A stretch of 34,902 bases of DNA from Acidobacteriota bacterium (GTDB lineage Bacteria > Acidobacteriota > Terriglobia > Acidiferrales > UBA7541). The first letter of the stretch is position 1, and each line of letters opens with the position of its first letter. Positions 6,720 through 34,902 of the stretch are shown here, piece after piece. Under the pieces are notes generated by a model. That model saw only the letters and a program-made list of their open reading frames with translations. It was not told the DNA's origin and made no database searches. The translations under genes were made by a program, and so were the position numbers. The stretch covers positions 1 through 34,902 of the forward strand of contig QHYI01000106.1 of NCBI GenBank assembly GCA_003223245.1. The letters are read 5' to 3'.

Positions 6720-8120
6720 TTAGTTACTCTGGACCTCTCTTGCGGGCGGTTCGCTCGCTTGCAATTCGTCTGCCGGGACATTTGCCTGCGCGAGTAGTGT
6801 GTCCTGTTTACTTGCGTGCGGGATCTCAGGGACACCAAAAGTGAAGGAAGTTTGCAGGGAAGGCGCCGGCAAGTAGGGGTTCTGTGCTTCCGGAACCTTG
6901 GCCTCGGGGAGAATCGCGCGGTAAGCGGCGAGAAGGTTCGGAATGGAATAATCCCAGGCAAGCTGCGTTTTGATGCGGCCGCTTGCGAAATTGCCAAGGG
7001 CCATCCGGCGCTGCGGATCGTCCATCAATTGGGTGAGCGCCTTTGCGAAGGCTCGCTCGTCGTTCGGAGTGACATAGACAGCGGCGCCGCGCGCCGTGAA
7101 GCGATGCTCGGGCAGATCGAATGCCACGATGGGCTTGCCCAACGACATGTACTCCATGATTTTAAACATCGTGGAGCGATCGTTGTACGGATTAGCAGGC
7201 GCGGCGTCCACACAGATATCCGCAGCGGCGAGAAGCTTTCGGAGATTTTCGCCAAAAACAGGACCAGTGAAACGCACGTAATCCTGAAGTCCCAATTCCC
7301 GCGCCAGGGTCTTTAAACTCTCCAGTGCATCGCCAAAGCCGATCAGCACGCAGTAAAAATCAGTCCGCCGGAGACGACGAACCATGTAGTCCAGGGCGCG
7401 CAGCAGATAATCCACTCCGTCCTGGAAGCCCATCACGCCGATGTAGCCAATAATTGTTTTTCCCATCTGTCGAAGCGCGTGGTCGGGTGCGACGGGAACC
7501 ATCACGCGGCTCAGTTCAATGCCGTTGCGAACGATAGTGATGCGTGATTGGGGAACACGGCCGCGTTCGATCGCCAGCTTTTTGTAGGACTCATTCGTGA
7601 CAATGACATGATTGGCGCAACGGCAGCTCAGCTTCTCCAGCCACACGAGCGCGCGATAAACCATCGTGTTTACGCCATGCCGGAAGCGGGCCAAGTACAT
7701 TTCTGGAGCAAGGTCGTGATGGTCATAGACAAAACGTTTGCCAAACATTTTGAAGAACAACGCGAGGAATACGAAGGTATCCGGCGGATTGTGAGCGTGA
7801 ATTACGTCAAAGCCCTTGCGGAACAATGCCACCAGCGACAACGTGAAGCTCGCGGCCATCGAGTACATGTATTCCCAGAGGTAGGAGAGGAATCCATGTC
7901 CCGGGGCAGGCGCGGGATAGCGGTAGACATGGACGCCATTGATGACCTCCCGAGAAGGCTGGCCCTTAGCCGAGGGACAGATCACCGTCACGAGATAGCC
8001 TGCGGAGCTCAGCGCGTAGGCCTCGCGGCGCACACGAACATCCTGGGGAAAAGGCAAGTTTTCCAGCAGCATGAGGATTCGGTTTTTGGCGACTGTCGGC
8101 ACGTCTTTTTTCGCGGTCAC
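6720..8120 (-). CDS. GT4-family glycosyltransferase, WbuB-like
   Basis: A predicted cytoplasmic GT-B glycosyltransferase. Motifs include RILMLLENLPFPQDVRVRREA at the N-terminus, HAHNPPDTF, FVYDHHDLAPEMY, and the C-terminal STMFKIMEYMSLGKPIVAFDLPEHR, all typical of the WbuB-like GT4 group. The frame is open to an ATG at 8228, but that start has no Shine-Dalgarno and overlaps asnB by 86 bp. The GTG at 8120 (23 bp after the asnB stop, 12 residues before the first beta strand) is preferred but not proven. The last ~50 residues are a low-complexity Pro/Ala/Gln-rich tail beyond the usual domain end. Donor and acceptor are unknown. Confidence 0.87.
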   Translation of the reverse strand: MTAKKDVPTVAKNRILMLLENLPFPQDVRVRREAYALSSAGYLVTVICPSAKGQPSREVINGVHVYRYPAPAPGHGFLSYLWEYMYSMAASFTLSLVALFRKGFDVIHAHNPPDTFVFLALFFKMFGKRFVYDHHDLAPEMYLARFRHGVNTMVYRALVWLEKLSCRCANHVIVTNESYKKLAIERGRVPQSRITIVRNGIELSRVMVPVAPDHALRQMGKTIIGYIGVMGFQDGVDYLLRALDYMVRRLRRTDFYCVLIGFGDALESLKTLARELGLQDYVRFTGPVFGENLRKLLAAADICVDAAPANPYNDRSTMFKIMEYMSLGKPIVAFDLPEHRFTARGAAVYVTPNDERAFAKALTQLMDDPQRRMALGNFASGRIKTQLAWDYSIPNLLAAYRAILPEAKVPEAQNPYLPAPSLQTSFTFGVPEIPHASKQDTLLAQANVPADELQASEPPAREVQSN

Positions 8121-25819: not shown

Positions 25820-27325
25820 ATGATGAGACGTGATCTGTTGAAAGCATCTTTGGTCGCGAGCGCCGCTACCTTGTTCAGCAGGTCAGGTGGCGGGCTGGCC
25901 GCTGCAGGCCAAAATCCCTTTCGCGAAACGACCGGCCTGACAAAATATGTTGCGCAATTCGTGCTGAACACAAAATACGAGAACATTCCATCCGACGTCC
26001 TGGCTCTTGGAAAGAAATCGATTCTGGACGGATTTGGTCTGGCCCTTGCCGGCTCGCTGGCGGAATCCGGTCCCATCAGCCGCAAATACCTTCAAAGCCT
26101 GGACGTTTGTAATGGAAAATCCACCATCATCGGTTGCGCTCTCAAATCGGCTCCGCGATTCGCCGCTTTCACTAATGGCATCTCCATTCACGCGGATGAT
26201 TTTGACGACACACAGCTCGCCGTGGCCAAAGATCGCGTCTATGGTTTACTTACACATCCGACTGCTCCGGTGTTGCCGCCTTCCTTTGCCATCGCCGAAC
26301 TCGGGAACGTCTCAGGCAAGGATTTCTTGCTTGCCTATCATCTTGGCGTCGAAGTCGAAACCAAGCTCGCCGAAGCAAGTTCTCCTCGCCATTATGAAGA
26401 CGGATTTCATTCCACTGGAACATTTGGGACGCTCGGTTCTGCGACGGCGTGCGCAAAAATGCGGGCGTTCCCTCTTGAGAAAATTCTCACCACGTACGGC
26501 ATTGCCGCTTCCGAGGCCAGCGGACTGCGCGAAAACTTTGGCACCATGACAAAACCGTTTCATGCAGGGCACGCAGCAGAAGGCGGAGTGGTCGCGGCCG
26601 ATCTAGCAAGTCTCGGCTGGACCGCGGCGCCACGAATCCTCGAGGCCCCGCGGGGCTTCTTTCACGCTTATAGCGGCACCTTCGACCCTTCCGCAATCAT
26701 GAGTAAGCTCGGCAATCCATGGACTTTCGCCGCTCCGGGTATTTCTTTGAAGCCTTATCCCTCGGGCTCCCTCACCCACCCCGCGATGACTGCTCTCTTG
26801 CGATTAATCCAGAAATATAACATCGCGCCAGCGGATGTCGACAAGATCGACGTCGGCACGAATCACAACATGCCGAACGCGCTGATTCATCACAAGCCGC
26901 AAACTGGCCTGCAAGCCAAATTCAGCATGGAATTTTGCCTTTCGGTTCTGCTCTTGGAACGCAAAGCGGTCTTGAGCCAGTTCACGGATGCATACGTGCG
27001 GCGCCCCGAAGTGCAAGACATGATCCGCCGCATCAACTTTTCTGTCGACCCCGTCGCCGAAAAGGCCGGTTTCGACAAAATGACTTCCCTCATTACCGTT
27101 CACCTCAAGGACGGAAGGACCTTGAAGGACCAAGCAGATTTCGCCAAGGGCAGCCCTGCCGATCCCATGACCTTCGAAGAAGCTACCGCGAAATTCCGAG
27201 GTTGCGCCGAATACGCCGAATGGCCACAATCGAAGACCGAGAAAATCATCGATTTCATAAAGGCCCTGGAATCTGTGCCAGATGTGAGCGTACTGTCACC
27301 CTTGCTGTCATCGGGAAATGCCTAG
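25820..27325 (+). CDS. MmgE/PrpD-family protein with twin-arginine N-terminus (1)
   Basis: A 501-residue protein. The N-terminus MMRRDLLKASLVASAATLF is a twin-arginine-type signal (RR-D-L-L-K then an alanine-rich hydrophobic stretch). The mature part is MmgE/PrpD: ILDGFGLALAG, HADDFDDTQ followed by THPTAPVLPP, and TKPFHAGHAAEGGVVAADLA with the family's Lys and His. Known members dehydrate 2-methylcitrate, decarboxylate cis-aconitate or epimerise iminodisuccinate; the substrate here is unknown. It starts the catabolic run and ends 12 bp before the tartrate dehydrogenase-like gene. It is only distantly similar to the other two PrpD-like proteins in the cluster. Confidence 0.88.
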   Translation: MMRRDLLKASLVASAATLFSRSGGGLAAAGQNPFRETTGLTKYVAQFVLNTKYENIPSDVLALGKKSILDGFGLALAGSLAESGPISRKYLQSLDVCNGKSTIIGCALKSAPRFAAFTNGISIHADDFDDTQLAVAKDRVYGLLTHPTAPVLPPSFAIAELGNVSGKDFLLAYHLGVEVETKLAEASSPRHYEDGFHSTGTFGTLGSATACAKMRAFPLEKILTTYGIAASEASGLRENFGTMTKPFHAGHAAEGGVVAADLASLGWTAAPRILEAPRGFFHAYSGTFDPSAIMSKLGNPWTFAAPGISLKPYPSGSLTHPAMTALLRLIQKYNIAPADVDKIDVGTNHNMPNALIHHKPQTGLQAKFSMEFCLSVLLLERKAVLSQFTDAYVRRPEVQDMIRRINFSVDPVAEKAGFDKMTSLITVHLKDGRTLKDQADFAKGSPADPMTFEEATAKFRGCAEYAEWPQSKTEKIIDFIKALESVPDVSVLSPLLSSGNA

Positions 27326-27337
27326 AAAGCCACATCC

Positions 27338-28405
27338 ATGCGAACTTTCAACATCGCGGTTATCCCCGGAGACGGCATTGGCAAAGAAGTTGTGCCTGAA
27401 GGCATGAAGGTGCTGGAGGCCGCGGCGAAGCGCTTTGGATTCTGCCTCACATGGCAATGCTTGGATTGGAGCTGCGAAGCCTATATTAAAACCGGCAGAA
27501 TGATGCCCGCGGATGGCATCGAGCAACTCCGGCCGTTTGACGCCATTTTCCTTGGCGCAGTGGGACACCCCGATGTTCGCGATCACATATCCCTGTGGGG
27601 ACTTTTAATCCCCATCCGCCGCAGCTTCCGACAGTACGTGAATCTCCGGCCCGTACGGCTCTTGGAAGGTATTGAGAGTCCGCTCAAGCATTGGAAGCCT
27701 GGTCAAATTGAGTTTTGCATTGTCCGAGAAAACAATGAAGGGGAATATTCGAATATCGGTGGGCGCCTGTATGAAGGAACCGAACAGGAAATGGCGGTGC
27801 AACAGACGGTTTTCACACGGCGTGGCGTCAATCGCGTGATGCGCTACGCATTCGAATTGGCGCGAAAGCGAAACAAGCATTTGACTTCGGCAACCAAATC
27901 GAACGGCATCATCCATACCATGCCCTTCTGGGATGAATGTTTTCGCGCAATGGCTGCGCAGTATCCCGACGTCCGCACGGACCAATTTCACATCGATATC
28001 TTGACCGCGCATTTCGTCCGCCATCCAGATTGGTTCGACGTCGTGGTTGGCTCGAACCTTTTCGGGGACATCCTTTCCGACCTTGGACCTGCGGTCGTGG
28101 GATCGATTGGTATCGCCCCTTCGGCGAATTTGAACCCAGAGAAGGAATTCCCTTCCATGTTCGAGCCGGTTCACGGTTCCGCACCGGACATTGCGGGAAA
28201 AGGAATCGCCAATCCGATCGGGCAAATTTGGTCCGGCGCGATGATGCTCAGGCACTTGGGAGAGTCCGCGGCAGCCGATGCCGTGGAAACCGCCATTGCC
28301 GCGGTTTTGGCTCAAGGAAGCGTGCGGACCCCCGACATCGGAGGCACCGCTTCCTCGAAGGAATTAGGGGCAGCTATTGCTTCACAAGTGAGCCGGGAGA
28401 AGTAA
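27338..28405 (+). CDS. Tartrate dehydrogenase / D-malate dehydrogenase (decarboxylating) family
   Basis: A 355-residue beta-decarboxylating dehydrogenase of the isocitrate/isopropylmalate family. Seen are AVIPGDGIGKEVVPEG at the N-terminus, LWGLLIPIRRSFRQYVNLRPVRL, the acid-binding IVRENNEGEYS, TSATKSNGI with the catalytic lysine, and the metal-binding NLFGDILSDLGP, then FEPVHGSAPDIAGKGIANP. The LWGLLxPIR block and NEGEYS point to the TtuC/DmlA group (tartrate, D-malate) rather than LeuB. TtuC-type enzymes use NAD and a divalent metal and can act on L- and meso-tartrate and D-malate. Its neighbours, a D-tartrate dehydratase-like enzyme and a dicarboxylate carrier, agree. Confidence 0.9.
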   Translation: MRTFNIAVIPGDGIGKEVVPEGMKVLEAAAKRFGFCLTWQCLDWSCEAYIKTGRMMPADGIEQLRPFDAIFLGAVGHPDVRDHISLWGLLIPIRRSFRQYVNLRPVRLLEGIESPLKHWKPGQIEFCIVRENNEGEYSNIGGRLYEGTEQEMAVQQTVFTRRGVNRVMRYAFELARKRNKHLTSATKSNGIIHTMPFWDECFRAMAAQYPDVRTDQFHIDILTAHFVRHPDWFDVVVGSNLFGDILSDLGPAVVGSIGIAPSANLNPEKEFPSMFEPVHGSAPDIAGKGIANPIGQIWSGAMMLRHLGESAAADAVETAIAAVLAQGSVRTPDIGGTASSKELGAAIASQVSREK

Positions 28406-28518
28406 GCTTCCCCGCCAAGTTTGTCTTGGGCGATGCCGACTCGAACCCCAACTTGCGAGCTCGGTATCAGCAGGCATGCTCTTATCGGTATCGGGCGTGC
28501 AGAAGTGAGCTAAGGACT

Positions 28519-30042
28519 ATGCGACATGATTCCCCGGAGGAGCCGAGAGAGCCGCGTGCCAGTCTGTCCCTGACTCGTCGCGACCTTTTCGGAATTGCCG
28601 GCCTAAGCATCGCCGCTGCCGAACTACCTTTGAAGAGGGCGTTCACGAGCTTCGCTTCCCCGGCCCCTCGCGCCGCACAAGAAACAAGCTCGGTCATGGA
28701 ACGCTTAAGCACGTATATGAGCGAAGCTCGCTCCCACGCGCTGCCAGAAGAAGTCGTTGAACAAACGAAACAGCATGTGCTCGATACCCTAGCCGCGATG
28801 ATTTCCGGTTCTGAGTTGCCTCCAGGACGCGCGGCATTGGAGTTCGCTCGCGCCTACGGTGGCCGGGAAGTAGCCATGGTGGTGGCATCGAATTTCTTAT
28901 GCGGCCCAATCGAAGCGGCGCTTACCAACGGCATGCTTGCTCACGCTGACGAGACTGACGATTCGCATTCTTCCTCGCAATCCCATCCTGGCTGTGCGGT
29001 CATTCCCGCGGCTCTTGCTGCAGGCGAGCGATTTGGCGTCAGCGGAACGCATTTCTTGCGGGCCGTGGCGCTCGGCTACGACATTGGCCCGCGCTTCACT
29101 ATGACTCTGGGCGGCCAACGGTTCGAAGCAGAAAGCCACTGGAGCACCCACAGCATTTCGCCCCTTTTTGGAGCGGCAGCCGCGGCAAGTTGCGCCGCAA
29201 GCTTGAACGCCCAGCAGATACGGTGGATGCTGGGCTACACCGCGCATCAGTCCTCCGGACTCGGAGCCTGGAACCGCGATACTGAGCATCTGCAGAAAGC
29301 TTTTCACTTCGGCGGCATGACCGCGCGCAACGGAGTCACTTCCGCCTTGCTGGTTCAAGCGGGATGGACCGGCGTCGATGACATCCTCTCCGGAACAGAT
29401 AATTTCTTCGCGGCTTACAATCCCCACGCTGATCGAGAAGGGCTGGTCGAAAAGCTTGGCGAACGCTATGAAGTGATGCATACGAACATCAAGAAATGGC
29501 CAGTAGGTTCGCCGATCCAGGCGGCTCTGGATGCCATAGCGGTTCTGCGTAAGCAGCATGCGTTTAACTCCGCTCAAGTAAAACAGGTGTCCGTTCGGCT
29601 TGCCACGGATGAAGCCGCCATTGTCAACAACCGCGAAATGCCGGACATTTGCTTGCAGCACATGCTCGCGGTGATGCTTCTCGACAACACCGTCAGCTTT
29701 GCTTCGGCGCATGACCAGGAACGCTTGAAAGACCCGGCGACTCTTCGCGAACGGGCCAAAATTCAGCTCATCCCGGACGCGGGACTGGAACGCCTCATGC
29801 CACTGCGCGTGGCCATAGTCGACCTTACGCTGACCGATGGTTCTCACCTCACTCAGCGGGTCGCCAATGTTCGCGGCACCCCCGAAAATCCCATGACCCG
29901 CGGTGAAATCATCGCCAAGGCAACTGACCTCATCACGCCAGTCCTCGGAGCGACGAGATGCTCTAGTCTGATCGACAAGCTATTCGATCTTGAAAGTGTC
30001 GGAGATATTCGGCGGCTCCGGCCCCTGTTGCAACGCAGCTAG
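28519..30042 (+). CDS. MmgE/PrpD-family protein with twin-arginine N-terminus (2)
   Basis: A 507-residue protein whose N-terminus contains LTRRDLFGIAGLSIAAAEL, a good twin-arginine motif. The MmgE/PrpD domain shows VLDTLAAMISGSELPPGRAA, HADETDDSHSSSQSHPG and LQKAFHFGGMTARNG, so the DD, HP, Lys and His positions of the family are kept. The frame is open upstream to 27937 inside the dehydrogenase gene; the extension is antisense-like filler, and ATG 28519 gives the Tat signal at the right place, though its ribosome site (AAGGA two bases away) is tight. It is a close paralogue of the protein at 31442-32989. Confidence 0.88.
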   Translation: MRHDSPEEPREPRASLSLTRRDLFGIAGLSIAAAELPLKRAFTSFASPAPRAAQETSSVMERLSTYMSEARSHALPEEVVEQTKQHVLDTLAAMISGSELPPGRAALEFARAYGGREVAMVVASNFLCGPIEAALTNGMLAHADETDDSHSSSQSHPGCAVIPAALAAGERFGVSGTHFLRAVALGYDIGPRFTMTLGGQRFEAESHWSTHSISPLFGAAAAASCAASLNAQQIRWMLGYTAHQSSGLGAWNRDTEHLQKAFHFGGMTARNGVTSALLVQAGWTGVDDILSGTDNFFAAYNPHADREGLVEKLGERYEVMHTNIKKWPVGSPIQAALDAIAVLRKQHAFNSAQVKQVSVRLATDEAAIVNNREMPDICLQHMLAVMLLDNTVSFASAHDQERLKDPATLRERAKIQLIPDAGLERLMPLRVAIVDLTLTDGSHLTQRVANVRGTPENPMTRGEIIAKATDLITPVLGATRCSSLIDKLFDLESVGDIRRLRPLLQRS

Positions 30043-30089
30043 CTGGTTTTGTTTTCTTATGGAACCGACCGAGGAGAGAATGCATCACC

Positions 30090-31256
30090 GTGCGCATCGT
30101 CGATATCCGTGAGACGGTTGTCCCCATCAAGTCGGACCTTCGCAACGCTTATATCGACTTTAGCCAGATGACCGTGAGTGTTCTGGCACTCGCCACTGAC
30201 GTCGTGCGCGACGGCAAGCCAGTCGTCGGCTACGGCTTCAATTCAAATGGCCGCTATGCGCCCAGCGGGCTCTTACGCGATCGCTTCCTTGCCCGTCTCA
30301 AAGCCGCGTCCCCGGAATCGCTGCTCGACGAGACGGGCAAAAATTTCGATCCGCATCGCATCTGGGCCACCGTCATGCGCAATGAAAAGCCCGGAGGCCA
30401 CGGCGAACGCTCTGTGGCCGTCGGCGTTCTGGATATGGCCGTCTGGGATGCCGTGGCAAAAATTGCAGGCCTCCCCCTGTATCGGCTTCTGGCGAATCGC
30501 TACCGGGGAGGACGGTTCGATGCCAAAGTGTTCGTCTACGCCGCCGGCGGCTACTACTACCCCAACAAAGATCTCTTCGCCCTGCAGGAGGAAATGCGCG
30601 GCTATCTCGCCCTGGGGTACTCTGTCGTGAAAATGAAGATCGGCGGCGCGCCACTTTCCGAAGACTTGCGGCGCATCGAAGCGGTGCTCAAAACTCTGAA
30701 ATCTCCGGACCAATTGGCGGTTGACGCCAACGGCCGCTTCGACCTGGACACTGCGGTCGCCTGTGCGCGGGCACTCGCCCCCTATGGTCTTCGCTGGTAC
30801 GAAGAACCGGGCGATCCCCTCGATTACGAACTCCAGGCCAAGCTCTCGGATCATTACTCCGGGCCGATGGCCACCGGCGAGAATCTGTTTTCCTTGCAGG
30901 ACGCGCGAAATCTTATCCGGTACGCAGGGTTGCGTCGCGATCGCGATATTTTGCAATTCGACTGCGCGCTCAGTTATGGCTTAGTGGAATACCTGCGCAT
31001 TCTGGAAATGTTGAAGGGTTACGGCTGGTCTCCCGCGCGCTGTATCCCTCATGGCGGTCACCAGATGTCGCTCAACATCGCGGCTGGTCTCGGCTTGGGC
31101 GGCAATGAATCCTACCCGGGCGTCTTCCAGCCTTTCGGCGGATTCGCGGACGGTATCCCGGTTGAAGACAGTTACGTTCAATTGCCAGGAATTCCCGGCA
31201 TCGGGTTTGAAGCCAACAACGAGCTGTACCGCGTCCTGAAGACCCTCGCGGAGTAA
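30090..31256 (+). CDS. tarD: D-tartrate dehydratase-like enolase-superfamily enzyme
   Basis: A 388-residue member of the mandelate racemase/enolase superfamily. Catalytic features are KMK (Lys181, Lys183), Asp212 in VDANGRF, Glu238 in WYEEP, Glu264 in GEN, and His321 in PHGGHQMSLNIAAGLG. This spacing and the GGHQMSLNIAAGLGLGGNE block match the Bradyrhizobium D-tartrate dehydratase as I remember it. That enzyme dehydrates D-tartrate to oxaloacetate with Mg2+. The start is GTG at 30090; GAGGAG lies 13 bases upstream, while a closer ATG (30080) is in another frame and encodes only ten residues. Cytoplasmic, unlike the PrpD-like neighbours. Confidence 0.85.
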   Translation: MRIVDIRETVVPIKSDLRNAYIDFSQMTVSVLALATDVVRDGKPVVGYGFNSNGRYAPSGLLRDRFLARLKAASPESLLDETGKNFDPHRIWATVMRNEKPGGHGERSVAVGVLDMAVWDAVAKIAGLPLYRLLANRYRGGRFDAKVFVYAAGGYYYPNKDLFALQEEMRGYLALGYSVVKMKIGGAPLSEDLRRIEAVLKTLKSPDQLAVDANGRFDLDTAVACARALAPYGLRWYEEPGDPLDYELQAKLSDHYSGPMATGENLFSLQDARNLIRYAGLRRDRDILQFDCALSYGLVEYLRILEMLKGYGWSPARCIPHGGHQMSLNIAAGLGLGGNESYPGVFQPFGGFADGIPVEDSYVQLPGIPGIGFEANNELYRVLKTLAE

Positions 31257-31441
31257 CGGACACACCTAGCAGCAATGTCATTGGAGGGTTTGCTGCTTTC
31301 TGAAAAGAAATTAATCCGTTTTTCAGGCACCGATTTGCCTGGTGACATATCGTCAGTCGCAGCGGGGGCCGCCTTCTTCACAACGCGCGTTCGTGAATCA
31401 ATTCCCTGGGGTACCATCGGTACCGAAGGAGAACCACAAAA

Positions 31442-32989
31442 ATGGGACCTGACCCTGGGAGCCAAGAGCCAAACGCCAACGCACGTGCGATTCTTACGCG
31501 ACGCGGCTTGTTCGAGTTTGCTGGCTTGGCCATTGCTTCCGCTGTTTTTCCAGCCAACGCGGCAATGGTGCGACCTTTCCGCGAGCTGGACCAGCGTCTC
31601 CGGTCTCCTGCGATCAGCCCGCTGATGGAAAAACTCAGCAGTTATATGAGTCAGGCTGCCACGCGCCCGCTTCCCGAAGAAGTCGTCGAAAAAGCCAAGC
31701 ACCATGTAGTGGACACGTTTGCCGCGATGATCTCAGGTTCCGAACTACCGCCAGGTCGCGCGGCTTTGCAGTTTGCCCAGGCGTACGGTGGAAAGGAGGT
31801 TGCGACCGTAGTTGCCTCCAAGATGATGTGCGGCCCCATCGAAGCAGCATTCGCAAATGGCGTCCTCGCTCATTCCGATGAAACCGACGATTCCCACGGC
31901 CCTTCCCGCTCGCATCCCGGCGCTTCGGTAGTGCCTGCTGCGCTCGCCGCTGGGGAGCAGTTCGGCGTCGATGGCGTTCACTTCCTTCGCGCCGTGACGC
32001 TCGGCTATGATGTTGGACCGCGCGTGACCATGAGCCTGGGTGGTCCTGCTTACCAAGTGGCCACTCACCGCAGCACGCATGGCACAGTCGCCGCGTTTGC
32101 CGCAGCCGCGGCCGCTGGTTGCGCGGCTGGGCTAAACACGCAGCAGTTCCGTTTTCTTCTTGACTATGCTGCTCAGCAAGCTTCGGGAATTGGCGCCTGG
32201 GCGCGGGACGCGGAGCACATGGAAAAAGCCTTTCTTTTCGGAGGGAAACCCGCCGCCGCCGGCGCGGCTACTGCGATGCTCATTCGCTCGGGCTGGACCG
32301 GCGTCGACGATGTCTTCTCGGGGTCGGACAATTTCTTCGACGCCTACGCTCCTAAGGAAAGTGGCGTCCTTAAAGCCGACCCGTCGCAACTCATCAATGG
32401 ACTCGGCGAGCGTTATGAAATTACCCGCACCAACATCAAGAAATGGACCGTGGGTTCCCCGATCCAAGCGCCGCTGGACGCGCTCGCTGGGTTCTTCCAA
32501 AAACGATCCTTCACTGCGGACGACGTGCAAAAGGTTGTAGTGCGCATCGCTAGCGACGAAGCCCATACCGTTAGCAACCGCGAAATGCCTGACATCTGCC
32601 TCGAGCACATGGTAGCCGTCATGCTCCTCGATAAGACGGTCACCTTTGCTTCGACACACGACAAAGCACGCATGCAAGATCCCGCGGTTTTGCGTCAGCG
32701 CGCCAAAGTAGAAGTGGTTGCCGATCCGCGCATCGACGCCCGGCGCCCACGCCGCGAGGCCATCGTCGAACTCACGCTTGCCGATGGCACATTGCTCAGT
32801 GAGTGGATTCGTGACGTCCGTGGCACGGCGGAAAATCCCATGACGCGCGATGAAGTGGTGGCCAAGGCTCGCGACCTGATCACTCCGGTGCTGGGTGCCT
32901 CTGATTGCTCCACGCTCATTGGCAAGTTGCTCTCCCTTGAGACCGTGCGCGATATTCGTGAACTTCGGCCGGCGCTGCAAAAAGGCTGA
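31442..32989 (+). CDS. MmgE/PrpD-family protein with twin-arginine N-terminus (3)
   Basis: A 515-residue protein with LTRRGLFEFAGLAIASAVFP near residue 18, a twin-arginine signal ending at about PANA. It is a close paralogue of the protein at 28519-30042: VVDTFAAMISGSELPPGRAA, HSDETDDSHGPSRSHPG, NIKKWTVGSPIQAPLDAL and VSNREMPDICLEHM line up directly. In the Lys-His block it reads MEKAFLFGGKPAAAG, so the His of the paralogue (KAFHFGG) is Leu. AAGGAG ten bases upstream supports ATG 31442. A 185-bp gap precedes it; DctA follows within three bases. Confidence 0.88.
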   Translation: MGPDPGSQEPNANARAILTRRGLFEFAGLAIASAVFPANAAMVRPFRELDQRLRSPAISPLMEKLSSYMSQAATRPLPEEVVEKAKHHVVDTFAAMISGSELPPGRAALQFAQAYGGKEVATVVASKMMCGPIEAAFANGVLAHSDETDDSHGPSRSHPGASVVPAALAAGEQFGVDGVHFLRAVTLGYDVGPRVTMSLGGPAYQVATHRSTHGTVAAFAAAAAAGCAAGLNTQQFRFLLDYAAQQASGIGAWARDAEHMEKAFLFGGKPAAAGAATAMLIRSGWTGVDDVFSGSDNFFDAYAPKESGVLKADPSQLINGLGERYEITRTNIKKWTVGSPIQAPLDALAGFFQKRSFTADDVQKVVVRIASDEAHTVSNREMPDICLEHMVAVMLLDKTVTFASTHDKARMQDPAVLRQRAKVEVVADPRIDARRPRREAIVELTLADGTLLSEWIRDVRGTAENPMTRDEVVAKARDLITPVLGASDCSTLIGKLLSLETVRDIRELRPALQKG

Positions 32990-34331: not shown

Positions 34332-34379
34332 AATGAACCGCCTTTTTGGACAGAACACAATGAACCGCCTTTTTGGACA
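34332..34379 (+). repeat. Two 27-bp-spaced direct repeats before the TonB-dependent receptor
   Basis: TGAACCGCCTTTTTGGACA occurs at 34334-34352 and again at 34361-34379, exactly 27 bases apart, with identical bases (AA) in front of both. They are just upstream of the receptor ATG at 34387. They could be paired operator sites or the multiple terminal repeats of an IS21-like element end; no transposase is seen in the window. Confidence 0.8.
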
Positions 34380-34386
34380 CAACCCT

Positions 34387-34902
34387 ATGAGTTCTCAGCT
34401 CAGTCCAATTTCGGGAACCATCCTCGCGTTGAAAATCACGACAGCGATTGCATTATGGGTTCCTGTTATCGCTCTCGGCCAGACGCCGGGACGAAATCTT
34501 TCCGGTATGGTTAAGTCGTCCTCCGGTTCTCCCATTCCGAGCGCGCAGATTTCCGTCAAAAACCTGGTAAGCGGCAATACGTTTTCCGCAAAGGTTGGAG
34601 AGGACGGGTCCTACAAACTGATGAACCTGCCACCCGGGAACTACGAGGTTTCTGCCACCGCTCCCGGATTTGCCTCCGTCCGCACCTTCGTGACCATAAA
34701 TCCGGATCAGGACCAAGTAACCAATCTGACGCTGTCTTCTGGGAACGAACAAAGGGCTTCGTCCACCGTGAGTGGCGCAGTCAACTCGCAAAGCGTGCGG
34801 GAGCTTCCGCTCAACGGGCGTTCGGCATCCGATCTGGCTGCGCTTGAGCCCGGAGTCGAGACAGCTCGCACGCAATCCTCGGGACAGGGCAAATATGGTT
34901 TC
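34387..34902 (+). CDS. Oar-like TonB-dependent receptor, N-terminal part (runs off right edge)
   Basis: The frame is open from 34333 to the window end; 172 residues from ATG 34387 are visible. A signal peptide (ALKITTAIALWVPVIALGQ) is followed by a carboxypeptidase-regulatory-like beta-sandwich (LSGMVKSSSGSPIPSAQISV, GEDGSYKLMNLPPGNYEVSATAPGF) and the start of the plug (NSQSVRELPLNGRSASDLAALEPGV). This is the arrangement of the large Oar-like TonB-dependent outer-membrane proteins abundant in Acidobacteria. The ATG at 34387 is preferred because upstream in-frame ATGs (34333, 34360) lie in the direct repeats and would displace the signal peptide. Substrate unknown. Confidence 0.85.
   Translation, partial: MSSQLSPISGTILALKITTAIALWVPVIALGQTPGRNLSGMVKSSSGSPIPSAQISVKNLVSGNTFSAKVGEDGSYKLMNLPPGNYEVSATAPGFASVRTFVTINPDQDQVTNLTLSSGNEQRASSTVSGAVNSQSVRELPLNGRSASDLAALEPGVETARTQSSGQGKYGF

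Follow-up and report, generated by a model that had tools for sequence, protein, structure and literature searches.

A tartrate-type gene cluster of an Acidobacteriota genome encodes three MmgE/PrpD-family proteins with predicted twin-arginine signals

A contig (C75) of the 6.31-Mb draft genome of an Acidobacteriota soil bacterium, most closely related among named genomes to those of gp2 / Candidatus Acidiferrum, carries a cluster of plus-strand genes that includes three genes for MmgE/PrpD-family proteins, here termed P1, P2 and P3. The stretch analysed, hereafter the window, is 34,902 nucleotides long, and the genes are ordered P1, TtuC, P2, TarD, P3, DctA and the start of a gene for a carboxypeptidase-regulatory-domain protein (Table 1). 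All three proteins scored above the gathering cut-offs for both MmgE/PrpD Pfam domains, PF03972 and PF19305, and below the equivalog cut-off for the 2-methylcitrate dehydratase PrpD (34.6, 27.5 and 38.9 bits for P1, P2 and P3, respectively, versus 950; NCBIfam). A previous sequence-only reading of this DNA had pointed to twin-arginine N-termini in all three, and we found them there: MMRRDLLKASLVASAATLFSRSGGGLAAAG in P1, ...LSLTRRDLFGIAGLSIAAAELP in P2 and ...AILTRRGLFEFAGLAIASAVFPANAA in P3. In each, the twin arginine is followed by an uncharged run that lies ahead of the PrpD domain, and the ATG of P2 at 28519 lies within a frame open from 27937.

Signals for the twin-arginine translocation (Tat) system were called with a strict and a relaxed rule, both of which are patterns of our own, and the counts take in the window proteins. 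The strict rule was set at 12 uncharged residues after a 13-residue version had missed P1 and P2 of the window, and its threshold is thus post hoc; this does not touch the curated Tat models or the conservation in the N-terminus alignment described below, as both are independent of it. The relaxed rule called a signal in P1, P2 and P3 of the window, and none of the three was among the misses of the strict rule. Among P2/P3 members (at least 50% identity), a signal was called in 82/96 by the strict and 94/96 by the relaxed rule, the two without any signal being L088 and L092, and among P1 members in 14/17 and 15/17, respectively. More distant P2/P3-type members (38-50% identity) carried it in 4/5 by either rule, and P1-like proteins at 38-55% identity in 0/2. 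The corresponding figures were 4/41 and 6/41 for other PrpD proteins (one of the six being plainly spurious), 1.0-3.6% and 3.4-10% for shuffles of the same regions (2.5% and 8.6% for P2/P3), and 40/915 and 65/915 for neighbouring non-PrpD open reading frames (ORFs), true Tat and Sec proteins among them. These counts leave out 2 of 98 P2/P3 members and 2 of 43 others that could not be evaluated, as well as matches with fewer than 250 aligned residues; here and in the residue counts below, the gp2 genomes are closely related and only identical cores were merged beforehand. Chance occurrence of the twin arginine was rejected on the basis of the shuffles, the other PrpD proteins and the 915 neighbouring ORFs.

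When 101 N-termini were aligned, with starts that we placed near the twin-arginine motif, R20 and R21 were the sole columns conserved at 90% or more, at a mean column identity of 23%. At E ≤ 0.1, the curated models TIGR01409 and PF10518 matched 27 and 34 of these 101 N-termini, versus 3 and 1 of 41 N-termini of other PrpD proteins, and a Bradyrhizobium homologue (L079) exceeded the TIGR01409 cut-off (22.1 versus 16.7 bits). TatC is encoded in the same genome (G000:C210; 219 bits, over the cut-off). Characterised MmgE/PrpD enzymes are regarded as intracellular, and most of the other PrpD proteins lack such a signal. Absence of the extension from homologues throughout the family, which the sequence-only reading had named as a refutation, does not hold for the P2/P3 clade, where nearly every member has it.

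The extensions of P1, P2 and P3 are, judging from their codon-position rates and from the ribosome-site-like motifs ahead of their starts, translated. Such motifs are GGGGA for P1, AAGGAG for P3 and a close-set AAGGA for P2; no such motif was noticed ahead of the internal Met with which the domain starts. Between relatives, divergence of the extension at codon positions 1, 2 and 3 was 0.30/0.23/0.55 in P1, 0.28/0.23/0.48 in P2 and 0.29/0.20/0.49 in P3. A wrong start codon was rejected on the codon-periodic constraint together with the upstream motifs. On plasmid pEP1 of Sphingobium sp. EP60837 (L115:7878-9488), the annotated start of an MmgE/PrpD gene at 8049 is probably too late, as a Tat motif, LSRRDLGLGAAAGGVAIAGRALG, is present in the open frame upstream.

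The AlphaFold model of P2, built on a 50-row alignment, had a mean predicted local distance difference test score (pLDDT) of 89.6, with residues 1-44 below 50. Residues 57-504 superposed on iminodisuccinate (IDS) epimerase (2HP0) with a Z score of 50.6 and a root-mean-square deviation of 1.9 over 436 residues (Foldseek TMt 0.90). In this model, the two-domain PrpD fold starts after the extension. With residue roles mapped from IDS epimerase and methylsuccinate isomerase, as given in the accessible text of PMC7347537 and PMC12290011, the active-site strings read H D H Y H K K in P1, H E H F H K K in P2 and H E H Y H K K in P3. All seven IDS epimerase positions, including the Tyr that serves as second base, were kept in 17/17 P1 members. 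The catalytic His and both Lys were kept in 65/65 P2-like members; in P3-like members, gaps aside, the His was kept in 32/33 and both Lys in 33/33. P1, P2 and P3 thus keep the carboxylate-binding and catalytic residues of the family and are predicted to be catalytically intact; pseudoenzyme status was rejected since the catalytic His and both Lys are kept. The second-base position is occupied by Phe in 16/16 proteins of the gp2 P2 clade and 14/14 Bradyrhizobium proteins, and by Tyr in 13/13 proteins of the P3 clade, so that the tandem paralogues P2 and P3 differ lastingly at one catalytic position. Judging by these residues, the proteins would be isomerases or lyases acting on C4-backbone acids; no particular substrate is singled out. 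We also considered the Gln that P2 and P3 carry in place of His277 of human cis-aconitate decarboxylase (CAD) as a mark of lost function, and dropped it because IRG1 of B. subtilis, according to the accessible text of PMC7347537, also lacks His277.

Thinning of 154 rows left 140 proteins, from which a tree was inferred with a quick method; in it, the P2/P3 relatives formed one clade of 88, 85 of which carry the signal, and the P1 members a separate clade of 17, both with a Shimodaira-Hasegawa-like approximate likelihood ratio test support of 100. A third MmgE/PrpD group of seven tree rows bears a Tat-type signal in four (L060, L114, L145, L160). The third-group proteins at L060:95-1633 and L114:9521-11011 are tandem partners of P2/P3-type proteins. 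The signal state changes at least seven times on the tree; the P1 signal was, as far as the tree can tell, acquired separately from that of P2/P3, and the counts of changes cannot separate gain from loss. The recurrence of the twin-arginine signal in relatives from several bacterial groups suggests that part of the chemistry of tartrate-like acids takes place outside the cytoplasm. Twenty loci have two or more evaluable PrpD proteins, and all of these carry the signal in 16 loci and none in two (L116, L023). The uniform state of 18 of the 20 loci, many of which are closely related, suggests a common compartment for the PrpD proteins of one cluster; a tandem PrpD pair in Caballeronia has the signal in both proteins. 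MmgE/PrpD proteins similar to P1 at ~35-39% identity (matches H47-H56) are also encoded on plasmids of halophilic archaea.

The partners that the sequence-only reading had named, a TtuC-like dehydrogenase, a TarD-like dehydratase and a DctA-type carrier, are indeed encoded in the cluster, the first and the last passing the cut-offs of their models (Table 1). The enolase-superfamily protein matched Bll6730 (2dw7) over its full length (597 bits, residues 1-388), and the six motifs carrying the catalytic residues of Bll6730 are all present. Bll6730 of Bradyrhizobium is the D-tartrate dehydratase TarD, the catalytic residues of which were reportedly described in Yew 2006. TarD of B. japonicum and that paper are both named in the accessible text of PMC10079672.

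Table 1. Genes and predicted N-terminal signals of the cluster
Feature	Position	Strand	Evidence
P1, MmgE/PrpD-family protein, Tat-type N-terminus	25820..27325	+	PF03972 + PF19305; seven active-site positions
Tat-type signal of P1, MMRRDLLKASLVASAATLFSRSGGGLAAAG; end approximate	25820..25909	+	PF10518 20.9 bits (cut-off 22.7); coding periodicity
TtuC-type tartrate dehydrogenase, without signal	27338..28405	+	TIGR02089 555.6 bits (cut-off 470.4)
P2, MmgE/PrpD-family protein, Tat-type N-terminus; Phe at second-base position	28519..30042	+	PF03972 + PF19305
Tat-type extension of P2, LTRRDLFGIAGLSIAAAELP; end approximate	28519..28680	+	coding periodicity; residues 1-44 outside predicted fold
TarD-like D-tartrate dehydratase (enolase superfamily), GTG start, without signal	30090..31256	+	Bll6730 (2dw7) match
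P3, MmgE/PrpD-family protein, Tat-type N-terminus; Tyr at second-base position	31442..32989	+	PF03972 + PF19305
Tat-type signal of P3, LTRRGLFEFAGLAIASAVFPANA; end approximate	31442..31561	+	Tat rules; coding periodicity
DctA-type C4-dicarboxylate carrier, GTG start immediately 3' of P3	32990..34309	+	NF002461 615.3 bits (cut-off 513)
Carboxypeptidase-regulatory-domain protein, 5' part only, continues past window edge	34333..34902	+	

Linkage was examined in a genus set of 36 genomes, with P1 called at E ≤ 1e-40 and TtuC orthologues at 75% identity or more. P1 was found in 13/36 genomes and the TtuC orthologue in the same 13, immediately 3' of P1 in 13/13, at a spacing of 13-31 bp where coordinates were compared. 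In G030, the P1 copy next to TtuC is broken (G030:C235:12584-13406; L139, L140) and lacks residues 165-371, and an intact copy lies at G030:C47. Weaker TtuC relatives (~52%) occur in four further genus genomes. TarD was present in 11/36 genomes, all within the 13 that have P2/P3-type proteins (Fisher p 1.3e-7, with kinship and completeness ignored). P2, TarD and P3 are contiguous in 10 of these 11, TarD of G002 being on a different contig, and DctA follows P3 in part of them. The window genome also encodes a truncated P1 paralogue (G000:C99:19290-19832; L004, L123) that covers residues 1-173 at 75% identity and bears a signal itself, MMRRDLFK. It abuts an inverted TtuC fragment (residues 1-53) and constitutes with it a rearranged partial P1-TtuC copy. 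An amidase gene (PF01425 in L080, 12671-14071; cluster c4) lies near the Tat-PrpD gene in 11 loci, mostly of Bradyrhizobium.

On balance, we favour the interpretation that P1, P2 and P3 are Tat-exported, intact PrpD-fold enzymes that act on C4-backbone hydroxy acids before uptake. In the scheme that we infer, from export and cleavage to reaction type, substrate and order of steps, the Tat system would carry the three proteins out of the cytoplasm in folded form, and they would convert hydroxy acids with a C4 1,4-dicarboxylate backbone, either in the periplasm or while positioned at the membrane face. P1 and P3 have the His-Tyr pair and may catalyse two-base isomerisation or epimerisation, as do IDS epimerase and methylsuccinate isomerase; the two-base site favours isomerisation for them. 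P2, with Phe for Tyr, may work with a single base, as a lyase or an isomerase. The products would be taken up by DctA, beside which some relatives have a TcuC-type symporter, and would be carried on to oxaloacetate and pyruvate in the cytoplasm by TtuC, the partner of P1, and TarD, the partner of P2/P3. The substrates could be tartrates, related malates or tricarboxylates. Tartrate epimerase (EC 5.1.2.5) is, to our knowledge, an enzyme without an assigned gene. It is tempting to imagine, as a doubtful extension of the scheme, that the exported MmgE/PrpD proteins are epimerases forming a periplasmic stereochemical funnel, which interconverts the stereoisomers of tartrate or related acids so that the carrier, TarD and TtuC meet only those isomers that they accept; one of them would then be the tartrate epimerase gene product, and exported PrpD enzymes would have arisen at least twice and have become an established element of the way in which bacteria of soil and freshwater use organic acids.

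Several observations weigh against the export scheme. The prediction of Tat signals, proposed as a check by the sequence-only reading, succeeded with our own rules and the clade-wide counts and only in part with the curated models, PF10518 and TIGR01409, which give no match to P2 or P3 of the window and miss the majority of P2/P3 N-termini; P1 of the window falls just short of both cut-offs (Table 1 for PF10518; 11.8 versus 16.7 bits for TIGR01409). P1-type proteins encoded on plasmids of Phyllobacterium, Neorhizobium and Pacificitalea (55-59% identical), only the last of which belongs to the 17 P1 members, lack the signal, as do that of L022 and a P2-type protein (45%) of Pacificitalea. The plasmid clusters resemble that of the window in combining a P1-type PrpD with a TtuC-type dehydrogenase (61-65%), further PrpD proteins and transporters, but their checked PrpD proteins have no Tat extension, and ABC or TTT transporters, PdxA and FabG stand in place of DctA and TarD, along with a second isopropylmalate-dehydrogenase-like protein. 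As signal-less P1-type proteins occur in comparable tartrate-dehydrogenase clusters, a single-compartment version seems to exist, and nothing in principle requires the reaction to take place in the periplasm. The proposal of a two-compartment pathway is partly supported, its sequence-level parts, namely the signals, TtuC, TarD and DctA, being present. The signal state is mixed in two of the 20 multi-PrpD loci (L064, L117). TarD was found within 9 kb in only 18/79 named loci (10 gp2-like and 8/14 Bradyrhizobium, the latter with another arrangement), TtuC in 6 and DctA in 5, many of the contigs being shorter than 9 kb; genome-wide, a TarD relative was detected at 1e-60 in 29/33 genomes examined (one partial, one just 51% identical) and in none of the other four. 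The structure model of P1 was poor (pLDDT 40.6) and unusable for fold comparison. His152 of methylsuccinate isomerase is kept in just 41/65 P2-like members, and that enzyme is inactive on (R)-malate and citramalate according to the accessible text of PMC12290011.

The most serious of the other explanations, which we hold to be possible though clearly not the likeliest, accepts export and places the substrate outside tartrate catabolism: it would be a tricarboxylate of the tricarballylate, aconitate or citrate type, or an acid derived from plant esters, with TtuC and TarD acting on later products or side chains. A TcuC-type symporter (NF011656, 701 bits, cut-off 445) is encoded between TtuC and P2 in L036, as is a symporter of the same sequence cluster in L037, and PrpD-family enzymes are known to handle tricarboxylates. 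This reading also draws on the carboxylesterases that adjoin the Tat-PrpD in Sphingobium (L115) and the P1 cluster in Neorhizobium (L173), and on the surroundings of L036, where a secreted beta-propeller, an amidohydrolase and, at the position of the carboxypeptidase-regulatory-domain gene, a 1054-aa TonB-type outer-membrane barrel are encoded. In 61 of the 79 named loci TarD was not found within 9 kb, which points the same way, whereas the adjacency of P1 and TtuC, the contiguity of P2, TarD and P3 in the genus and the linkage of TarD in Bradyrhizobium argue against this reading. The twin-arginine segment could instead be an uncleaved membrane anchor that tethers the enzymes, the domain perhaps still facing outside. 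This is unlikely in our opinion: the hydrophobic run of P2 is followed by a charged LKR, with no clean cleavage site immediately behind it, but an AxA-like motif, by a crude pattern and not universally, is present in 77/98 Tat-labelled P2/P3 members, and the P1 signal has LAAAG, the P3 signal PANAA, at its end.

Retention in the cytoplasm, with the extension being a chance feature or a miscalled N-terminus ahead of a true start at the conserved Met heading the domain, seems to us highly improbable. That Met does exist (SPVM in the consensus), the Sphingobium relative is annotated from it and cytoplasmic versions occur; however, the codon-periodic extension, the placing of the ribosome-site-like motifs and the restriction of 90% columns to the two arginines, set against the low rates in shuffles, all speak for a genuine signal. 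The exported proteins might also bind or sense organic acids, being no longer enzymes, in line with the loss of the second base in P2 and of His152 in part of its clade. We give this little credence, as the catalytic His and both Lys are retained almost without exception in P2-like and P3-like members.

We know of no exported MmgE/PrpD step in the known TarD and TtuC routes, whose enzymes, TarD (Bll6730) and the TtuC tartrate dehydrogenase, correspond to the two cytoplasmic partner enzymes of the window cluster. No description of a Tat-exported MmgE/PrpD protein was found in the literature searched, which was mostly without subscription papers and in which the slashed name "MmgE/PrpD" was probably poorly matched. 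In the accessible text of PMC10924467, the sole Tat paper found to name PrpD, PrpD figures only as the neighbour of a hydrogenase gene. The term tartrate epimerase occurred in one paper of that literature. The exported form would be a variant of a known enzyme family. Among the relatives with solved structures, IDS epimerase ranks first or second in sequence comparisons with each of P1, P2 and P3. It shares the fold with P2 and the His/Tyr pair with P1 and P3; unlike P2, it has the Tyr, and it is only 23% identical over the part aligned with P2, has no N-terminal extension aligned and lies in another gene neighbourhood. The (S)-(R)-methylsuccinate isomerase has the same proposed catalytic and carboxylate-binding residues and resembles P2/P3 in having Glu at the second position of the carboxylate site, but belongs to an itaconate/methylsuccinate CoA cluster, and the accessible text of PMC12290011 mentions no signal, periplasm or cytoplasm. 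CAD (IRG1) and the 2-methylcitrate dehydratase PrpD share family and fold with the window proteins, although sequence identity in the structural alignments is 21-22% for CAD and 15-18% for PrpD/MmgE, and the window proteins are far under the PrpD equivalog cut-off.

A 2025 study (PMC12290011, accessible text) counted 50,344 MmgE/PrpD homologues in GTDB, mostly uncharacterised. With a large clade in which nearly all members have a Tat signal, the family would gain a compartment and, if the proteins are exported, the organic-acid catabolism of Acidobacteriota, Bradyrhizobium and Polynucleobacter a periplasmic step. The search for function would also be narrowed, as only substrates that are accessible outside the cytoplasm and suit the chemistry of TtuC or TarD would qualify. 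Cultured Bradyrhizobium and Polynucleobacter strains with single PrpD copies would allow the export interpretation to be tested directly.

Metagenome-assembled genomes titled Gammaproteobacteria or Verrucomicrobia also contain this gene set (L038 and L040, 72-75% identical to P2; L052, 61%), for which binning errors or transfer are possible. Elsewhere in the window, the minus strand carries an exopolysaccharide cluster (526-21566) with genes for glycosyltransferases, an MBOAT protein, a polysaccharide flippase, an asparagine synthase, an O-antigen ligase, a sugar transferase and an AAA ATPase, together with GumC-, Wza- and NusG-like proteins as judged by eye.

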